Part shown: positions 2,358-4,553 of the stretch, one piece after another
Layout of the letters: each line of letters begins with the position of its first letter
Position numbering within the stretch: position 1 is the first letter of the stretch
Source: Periplaneta americana
Taxonomy: Eukaryota; Arthropoda; Insecta; Blattodea; Blattidae
Direction of reading: 5' to 3'
NCBI RefSeq assembly: GCF_040183065.1
Contig: NC_091120.1
Span: forward strand, 176,237,988 to 176,301,987
Length of the DNA: 64,000 bases
Notes under the pieces: generated by a model
Told to the model about the DNA's origin: nothing
Seen by the model: only the letters and a program-made list of their open reading frames with translations
Databases searched by the model: none
Position numbers and translations under genes: made by a program

Positions 2358-4553
2358 CAGGGAACGGATTTATATGGACTAAAAATATATGAAATATGTA
2401 AATATATATGTAGTTATTTTTACCAAAATATGGAATTAAATATGGATTTTTACCAAAATATGGAATTAAATATGGACTTAAAATTATAAAAAAATGACTA
2501 TGTACGTTAAATATTGGTACATTTTAATCAAACTAAACAAAAAATATAATGGACGTACCTTATCTTCCAATGTAGTTTCAACAAAACACAATTTTTATTG
2601 TCTGTTACCATAACAATAGGTTACAAACATTTCTTTCAAGTGCTGAAAAGTGAATCTTCTTCTATTGTCTCTGAGGATAGATTTATACTGACTAAAAGAG
2701 CGTTCGACGTCACAAGAAGTAACTGGTACATAATTCAATTTCACAATGTCTGCTGGGGATAAGTCCAAGTTAATCTTCACTGTTGATTCACCACTCATCA
2801 CAGCAACAACCTTTTGTAGTTCTTCATATCCAGGGTTTTTTGAAAGTACAGTGTCCACCTTAGCTCTTACTGCATCTGCAACTTTACCTCTACCACGATT
2901 CAGTTGTTTCACAGTACTATTTATAATTTCAAAACTTTCAGATAGTGAAAGGTGCCTATTTTGGAGACTTTTGAGCGTTTTTATGATGCATGAAAATGTA
3001 TGCTGAATGTGAGCTAAGTCATTCTTCACACTTATGTCACAGGTAACTGTTTTCGCAGTATCAATTGAGACTGCATCTTCAGAGTCCAATGCAAGGAGAA
3101 CATTGTTAATAGAGTCTATATGTTCGGCATAATATTCAACTGCTTCTAGCCATGTACCCCATCTAGTTAAAATTGGCTTTGGTGGCAATGGAATTTCAGG
3201 GTACATTTCTTTCAACACGTTAACTCTACTGGGAGCTTTGAGAAATACTTTTTTCACTGATGAAATCAACAAATCTACTTTAGGGAAATTGTCTCTGACC
3301 ACTTCTGCCACACGATGAAATCCATGCGCCACACAAGTAAAATGAGTCAATTTAGGATATACAACAGATAATGCTTGTCCAGCTTTGACCATATAAGGGG
3401 CAGCATCGCTAATAAAGAATAACACATTATCGTACATAATACCCTTTGGCCACAGGATACCCATAGCTTCGTTGAACAGTTTAACTATAGTTTTGTTATT
3501 GCACTTTTCTAGAACATCACAATGTAAAAGAATTCGTTCAGAATATTGTTCACTTAACAAACCGATAACTACATTACCAACAAGTCTACCTTCTTTGTCG
3601 GGAGTCTCATCAATGGAAACCCAAATTGAACTATCTTTAATTTCATCTCTTATCTTCTGTATTGTCTCATCGTAGATGGATGGAGCATACGTCTTCCTAA
3701 GTGTTGACTCATCCGGGATTGTATGTTGAGTATATTTTTCAAGGAATTCCCTGAAGACCTTATTCTTTAGTTTGTAGAGAGGAATATCAGCAGAGATGAG
3801 AGAACGGCACAGGTCGATGTTAAACTCAGATCTTACATTCGATGTTGTTGGTTGTGTTAAAAACAATTGTCTCTGCTTGGAATTTAGTTGTTTGTTGGCC
3901 TGATGTTTACTAGTTGTAATGTGTTGTTGCACCAGGAACTTTTGTGTAGATGATACTGCACACTGACACAAATTACAAAATAATATTTTATTGTCAGTTG
4001 ATAAACCATCTTCTTTAAATTCTGAAATGTAACTTGTTAGTTTTGATTTTAAATTGACTGAATGACGTACTTTTGGCATATTTACCGTCTTTATAGTATG
4101 ATTTACAAAACTGAACCTATGTGTACTCTGACTGGCATTTAACTGTTGAGCTGCACAACTGAAGTCTGTTAAAAATTTTAAATTAAATTAATACAGTTTT
4201 GTAACTTACTTTCCCATTGTTGATAGGACTGCTAATTTTCAAATAACTCTGATGTTAAAGGGATTACTGAACATGTGTTTAAATCTCTATTGTTGAAATG
4301 TATTTTTAAAAGTTAATGGAATTTTGTTTTGTTTTATTGTTAAACCTAATATAATATGGACTGTTTTATATGAAATATGGAAAATATATGGAAATTAACG
4401 AAAATATGTACTAAACTCTAAAATATGGAAAAATATGGAAAATAAAAGTAGGATTTTTCAACCCTACACATTGTGAAACATAAAGATAATGCAAAATATA
4501 AATTATATTAGCTTTATAAGTAAATATGTATTTACATATAAATCCTTTCCCTG
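2358..4553 (-). mobile_element. Complete hAT DNA transposon (2196 bp)
   Basis: The left end begins cagggaacggatttatatg and the right end is its reverse complement with one mismatch, giving a 19-bp terminal inverted repeat. The 8-bp duplication ctaataac flanks it at 2350-2357 and 4554-4561 and fits the hAT target pattern nTnnnnAn. Both subterminal regions (about 2377-2480 and 4355-4440) hold many copies of aatatgga, which look like transposase binding sites. The single gene, on the minus strand, is an uninterrupted transposase. Ends, duplication and open frame together indicate a recent and possibly autonomous insertion. Confidence 0.95.
2595..4079 (-). CDS. hAT-family transposase, CGGBP1-like N-terminus, intact
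   Basis: A 494-residue uninterrupted frame, slightly short for hAT transposases (commonly 500-700). Residues about 12-62 form a BED/CGGBP1-like zinc finger with C35, C38, H53 and H59, for binding transposon ends. A DDE-type core follows: the segment WVSIDETPD (about 153-161) carries the likely first acidic residue, ISDAAPYM is a second conserved block, and [13 protein letters not shown] matches the hAT 'RW' region. The C-terminal 60 residues, starting near [13 protein letters not shown], are the hATC dimerisation domain. The ATG at 4079 precedes the zinc finger, so this start is reasonable. It is the only gene of the element at 2358-4553. CGGBP1 is a domesticated relative, so a host protein is an alternative, but the flanking inverted repeats and target duplication argue for a mobile transposase. 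Confidence 0.93.

Follow-up and report, generated by a model that had tools for sequence, protein, structure and literature searches.

A CGGBP-type hAT transposon of Periplaneta americana with about 7,000 near-identical, mostly full-length copies: evidence for a very recent burst

A hAT transposon of the CGGBP type, autonomous in appearance, was analyzed in a stretch of 64,000 nucleotides of the Periplaneta americana genome (the window). Its family very probably went through a very recent burst in which a single sequence gave rise to about 7,000 dispersed and mostly full-length copies. The burst is supported by target-site duplications (TSDs), by empty sites, by the near-identity of copies lying in unrelated flanks, by mutations that are mostly private to one copy and by the intact open reading frame (ORF) found in 16 of 20 sampled copies. 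The element is a further member of a known hAT group; what stands out is the scale and the purity of the burst.

Results

The element is 2,196 bp long and spans positions 2358-4553 of the window, exactly the interval given by an earlier note on this DNA, which had described 19-bp terminal repeats with one mismatch, a perfect 8-bp duplication and clustered subterminal motifs. All three features were reproduced. The left terminal inverted repeat (19 bp, 2358-2376, plus strand) matches the right one (19 bp, 4535-4553, minus strand) at 18 of 19 positions, and the duplication CTAATAAC is present on the left (2350-2357) and on the right (4554-4561) of the element.

The left 237 bp contain four occurrences of the motif AATATGGA, as do the right 474 bp; the ORF has none. 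The left subterminal array (2416-2476, plus strand; motif starts at 2427, 2439, 2457 and 2469) includes two identical 30-bp direct repeats, which are perfect tandem units at 2416-2475; the right array (4353-4439, plus strand) has motif starts at 4353, 4374, 4422 and 4432. Dinucleotide shuffling gave a mean of 0.06 motifs for the left end and 0.05 for the right, and a count of four was reached in 0 of 1000 shuffles at either end. All eight motifs of the two arrays are found on the same strand, so that the two ends of the element are unequal. One sister copy (L025) has 12 bases missing in the left subterminal region (2426-2437), and its duplication is still perfect.

Within the window, the 12-base start of the element ends had no occurrence except at the 2358-4553 element, and none of the five other stop-to-stop frames of at least 130 codons matched a hAT family (Pfam, E 0.001).

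The transposase ORF, claimed earlier as an uninterrupted frame of 494 codons, was confirmed on the minus strand at 2595-4079 (494 codons plus stop, read from 4079 to 2595). It contains no internal stop and sits in a 530-codon open frame that lacks an in-frame upstream ATG. Residues 13-146 (3642-4043, minus strand) form a CGGBP1-like N-terminal region: alignment to human CGGBP1 gave a local score of 126, against a mean of 34 (sd 5.3, maximum 66) for 1000 shuffles, and phmmer returned an E value of 2.2e-7 for a nominal 20,000 sequences. This region carries a finger, C35-x2-C38...H53-x5-H59, followed by a Hermes-type DNA-binding region with P100 and P122. The zinc finger of the earlier note is thus backed by the alignment to CGGBP1, whereas a Pfam search of the transposase gave no BED finger.

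A DUF659 domain was identified by Pfam at residues 122-278 (3246-3716, minus strand; E 1.8e-12, above the cut-off); it contains the presumed catalytic residues D157 and D225. The hATC-like dimerisation region, at residues 451-486 (2622-2729, minus strand), includes the presumed catalytic E459. The match to hATC (PF05699), the domain named for this protein in the earlier note, is weak (E 0.025; 14.8 bits, below the cut-off of 21.4). A CxxH motif, C249-V-A-H252, and the adjoining residue 253 are encoded at 3321-3335 (minus strand); residue 253 is G in the window and A in the majority sequence. The catalytic triad of hAT transposases has a recognizable signature, which D157, D225 and E459 resemble, and these residues are presumed to be the DDE triad by motif, not by structure. 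An AlphaFold run without an alignment gave a mean pLDDT of 36, which leaves the active-site assignment resting on motifs.

Searches of PDB sequences with the transposase returned no hAT match and nothing relevant, and the one NCBIfam match was far under the cut-off. Viral and prokaryote collections yielded no relative, a result that says little because animal genomes are not what these collections cover.

The copy number was determined by pattern counts over the whole assembly (3,231,669,367 bases, 91 contigs). The exact 41-bp left end was found 3386+3391 = 6,777 times, an exact 41-mer from the centre of the ORF (3400-3440) 3396+3457 = 6,853 times and the exact 41-bp right end 3395+3432 = 6,827 times, while the reversed control patterns of all three had 0 matches genome-wide. 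From the nearly equal counts it follows that almost all amplified copies are close to full length and that amplification did not extend to short derivatives which kept these ends but lost internal sequence. When up to 3 mismatches were allowed, left ends rose by 293 to 3515+3555 = 7,070, a count limited to ends with no more than 3 mismatches in 41; comparison with the 6,777 exact ends argues against a large cloud of copies diverged by a few percent. An exact 200-mer within the ORF occurred 3062+3145 = 6,207 times. Combined, the pattern counts point to about 7,000 copies with 0.06-0.10% divergence, which would amount to 15.5 Mb (0.48% of the genome) were every copy full length. A plain DNA search found 12 matches; it skips very common words and hence undercounts.

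A genome-wide search for identical copies had been proposed in the earlier note, and the outcome was these roughly 7,000 identical or near-identical ones. They bear out the recent movement claimed there for the element, a claim that missed the scale of the expansion.

The integrity of sister copies was assessed in two ways. In a protein search, all 87 of the 87 scored places showed the full 494-residue frame, stop-free and at 100% rounded identity; these are the best 87 of 56,006 candidates, scored best first, and the set is therefore biased to intact copies. Twenty consecutive left ends on contig C1, a sample taken from its first 11 Mb without regard to the ORF and requiring an exact left end, gave 19 full-length copies, 18 with perfect TSDs and 16 with the whole 494-codon ORF (95% interval for the intact fraction, 56-94%). 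Autonomy is plausible for most sister copies.

For the analysis of target sites 43 copies were examined, and one (L071, the same copy as L041) was dropped because its right end was not found. Perfect 8-bp TSDs flank 40 of the 42 distinct both-end copies, the exceptions being L002 and L075. Among the 40, every target has A at position 4 and T at position 5. T occupies position 2 in 36 copies and A occupies position 7 in 37; A or T stands at position 3 in 34 copies and at position 6 in 29. The consensus, nTWATWAn, is narrower than the general hAT pattern nTnnnnAn and lies within it. The general pattern had been cited in the earlier note and agrees with the data: T2 and A7 are both present in 34 of the 40 perfect-TSD copies and at least one of them in 39.

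Copy L002 (G000:C8:96215356-96217551) is full length and has duplications that do not match (ATAATAAC and ACTATTAT). This could perhaps be due to a rearrangement or to alternative transposition.

Several host repeats that carry the element in one place have paralogous, element-free copies with a single 8-bp site. Such empty sites are found in the window itself: the repeat at 37126-37368 has a single GTAATTAC and corresponds to sister copies L061 and L067; the repeats at 37693-38349 correspond to L021 (single TTTATCAG) and to L025 (8-mer different by one base); and the repeat at 39010-39426 has a single GTAATAAC and corresponds to L015. In some of the empty sites compared (L017, L025 and L069) the 8-mer is off by one or two bases. 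At least twice, one repeat site was hit by two separate insertions: the GTAATTAC site was used by L061 and L067, in opposite orientation relative to the host repeat, and the GTTATTAC site by L003 and L068.

The window repeats 37126-38349 and 39010-39426 are recurrent targets, their copies elsewhere hosting the element at short fixed sites. At L038 (G000:C1:7915023) an element-free second copy of the flanking repeat, 99% identical, lies about 257 bases upstream, so that this insertion adjoins its own empty site.

Divergence was measured against the majority sequence in the 42 distinct copies, of which 6 had been found through shared variants, 17 had been picked for an intact ORF and 19, the members of the contig C1 sample with both ends, had not been picked for their ORF. 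The latter 19 both-end copies carry a mean of 1.84 substitutions each; 3 are unchanged and the others have up to 5. Over the left 1,530 bases, a set of 29 copies that includes these 19 (30 were examined, and the interrupted L041 was dropped) showed a mean of 1.21. Eight of the 42 copies, each at a separate locus and with a TSD of its own, match the majority sequence throughout. If insect mutation rates are taken to lie between 2.8e-9 and 5e-9 per site per generation, this level of divergence would have needed some 1.3e5 to 3.7e5 generations to build up.

The ratio of variance to mean of the mutation counts was 1.04 for the 19 copies and 1.03 for the left 1,530 bases of the 29 copies. These Poisson-like counts fit one short, ended burst as well as continuing activity, and the test is weak: a uniform-age model reaches a dispersion as low in 11% of simulations. 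The 42 copies have 51 variant sites private to a single copy, a star-like pattern, and 5 that are shared. Position 2909 is among the shared sites because the first six copies were found through shared variants; the other four are each common to two copies, and the star is thus not perfect. In the ORFs of the 19 unselected copies, 15 nonsynonymous changes, 4 synonymous changes and 1 stop were counted, where neutral expectation is 71:25:4%.

The window copy differs from the majority sequence at two positions, both missense, A253G and E391K. For A253G (3322C), the 41-base context is matched exactly at 1 place in the genome, the window itself; the majority form is matched at 6,887. Residue 253 is alanine in all 5 older relatives that cover the position (8 were examined; 6 were fetched for this residue, and L089, L090 and L092 gave no alignment there), which puts A253G at a conserved position adjoining the CxxH motif. 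A copy with this change is not the best witness for an active element. The window copy, structurally complete as it is, is by its sequence not the best representative of a functional element.

The E391K form (2909T) has 4 exact matches in the genome, the window copy included. The first DNA search had returned relatives with T at 2909, which gave rise to the idea that K391 is the ancestral state and that the window belongs to an ancestral four-copy lineage. This idea was rejected, since 8 of 8 older relatives fetched through a search with L007 carry C (E391). We infer that the first DNA search, which skips very common words, seeds only near the window's own variants and that its relatives were picked for sharing them. 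Moreover, about 9 independent C-to-T changes are expected per C site among some 7,000 copies, so that four copies with 2909T need no common descent.

The older relatives number at least 10 in the genome (L007, L008 and 8 further places) and are 78-91% identical to the window over stretches of 83-197 bases. As 40 of the 289 candidates from the search with L007 were scored, the number is a lower bound. Of nine sites fetched through this search, eight are older relatives, 82-87% identical to L007 over the short stretches fetched; the ninth (L088) also has C at 2909 and, sharing 99% of its bases with the window over 100 bp, was counted as a burst copy. The left end of L007 is nearly the same as that of the burst family, and both L007 and L008 encode fragments of the same protein, with stops and frameshifts. 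The lineage therefore predates the burst, whose source could be a reawakened resident or a newcomer.

Discussion

In the usual picture of a DNA-transposon burst, short non-autonomous derivatives and dead copies come to prevail. Our tentative account, which we hold as possible and rate somewhat under an even chance, is that a CGGBP-type hAT entered or awoke at most roughly a few 10^5 generations ago, that it gave rise to about 7,000 mostly intact copies with no amplification of short derivatives, and that it may still move. If true, a DNA-transposon invasion is being seen at a stage that precedes any reshaping by its own parasites or by host silencing, and the cockroach burst offers unusually clean material for studying how a transposon invades a genome. 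As the copies are near full length and 16 of 20 are intact, it can be tested directly, in an insect that is common both in the laboratory and as a pest, in what order amplification, parasite elements and silencing follow one another.

By analogy with Hermes, the transposase would use its BED-like finger to bind the clustered subterminal repeats of the AATATGGA type and would pair both ends, the inequality of the ends helping left-right pairing. Cutting would be carried out by the putative D157-D225-E459 active site, and insertion would take place with an 8-bp stagger. As cut-and-paste alone does not multiply copies, the copy number may rise when gaps are repaired from the sister chromatid or when the element moves during replication. 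Each copy would decay neutrally once inserted.

The near-identity of thousands of copies is also what segmental or satellite duplication would produce. Transposition is distinguished from it by the distinct flanks, by the perfect and mostly different TSDs with a target consensus (40 of 42) and by the paralogous empty sites; these refute duplication for the copies examined, and as the origin of the family it is extremely improbable. A domesticated CGGBP-like host gene is an equally improbable reading of the ORF. The protein does have a CGGBP-type N-terminus and such domestications are documented (PMC8097297), but the ORF changes sampled are near neutral expectation, and the presence of about 7,000 copies with transposon ends contradicts a single domesticated host gene.

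A very recent burst of transposition, the reading preferred here, may or may not have come to an end. We see an even chance that it was brief, that it ended on the order of 10^5 generations ago and that the copies are now silenced, their ORFs being intact because there was little time for decay. A single pulse suits the mean divergence of 0.06-0.10% and the Poisson-like dispersion, and the ORF changes of the 19 unselected copies (15:4:1) show no sign of selection on individual copies; on the other hand, 3 of the 19 are unchanged where others carry up to 5 changes, so that very recent insertions are possible, and the uniform-age simulations reproduce the low dispersion in 11% of cases. That the family is still transposing in living cockroaches has, in our judgement, a probability just short of even. 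This would agree with an intact ORF in what probably amounts to thousands of copies (16 of 20 in the sample) and with the 8 of 42 copies equal to the majority sequence, each at its own locus with its own TSD. However, very abundant elements are expected to be silenced by piRNAs, as would then apply to one so abundant as this.

Hermes, a hAT of the housefly, has a DDE transposase with hATC. It shares with the cockroach element the 8-bp nTnnnnAn duplications, terminal repeats that differ at a few positions, unequal ends and subterminal repeats, which in Hermes are bound by the BED finger (PMC10368747). The Hermes transposase has 612 amino acids, the cockroach one 494. In the cockroach element, unlike Hermes, all eight AATATGGA motifs point in one direction and the target core is AT in 40 of 40 copies.

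The closest group appears to be that of the hAT-19-type, or CGGBP-like, hATs, with which the BED-like finger and the Hermes-type N-terminus are shared (PMC8097297). The zinc ligands, the leucine two residues before the finger and the two prolines named there correspond to L33, C35, C38, H53, H59, P100 and P122, matched through CGGBP1 (PMC8097297). Elements of Locusta and Rhodnius belong to this group, and Yellan et al. 2021 reported AT-rich binding motifs for the two insect hATs (PMC8097297), in line with the AT-rich subterminal array of the cockroach element. Dozens of independent domestications of this subtype were also described (PMC8097297). The subject of that report, to which our element is likened by description, is domestication and DNA binding and not a burst of autonomous copies (PMC8097297). 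The earlier note had placed vertebrate CGGBP1 in the lineage of this element; CGGBP1 comes from a hAT of the same protein subtype and need not descend from this cockroach family. A CGGBP-type transposase combined with a repeated AT-rich motif offers a ready test of DNA recognition by a module that has been domesticated many times.

Near-identical, full-length, intact copies have likewise been taken as a sign of recent activity for the TRT/Tc1 elements of cichlids and for mariners of Rhodnius (PMC5630946, PMC4678618). For TRT, 84 of 201 complete copies are intact, with about 250 copies in each of three cichlids (PMC5630946); the cockroach burst, by contrast, has about 7,000 copies, 16 of 20 of them intact in our sample, and no excess of short derivatives. 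The Rhodnius mariners also made only a limited set of MITEs (PMC4678618). In the literature searched, no paper evidently describes this hAT family or a burst of such size in P. americana. The paper on the P. americana assembly PAMFEO1_priV1 reports that DNA elements are more abundant at 5% Kimura divergence; the word hAT is absent from its main text, where hobo-Activator-Tam3 is named (PMC12774602).

Other open frames of the window

An open frame at 47779-48345 of the window matches the zinc-binding domain of reverse transcriptase (zf-RVT, E 1.1e-7), with a weak match to an RNase H end below the cut-off, and is probably, to judge from these matches, part of a non-LTR retrotransposon. Two further open frames, at 27846-28253 and 43317-44024, had no Pfam match; they are alike by eye, with the stretch IPSHRTSSYSSSFT in common, and are probably the tails of reverse transcriptase genes.
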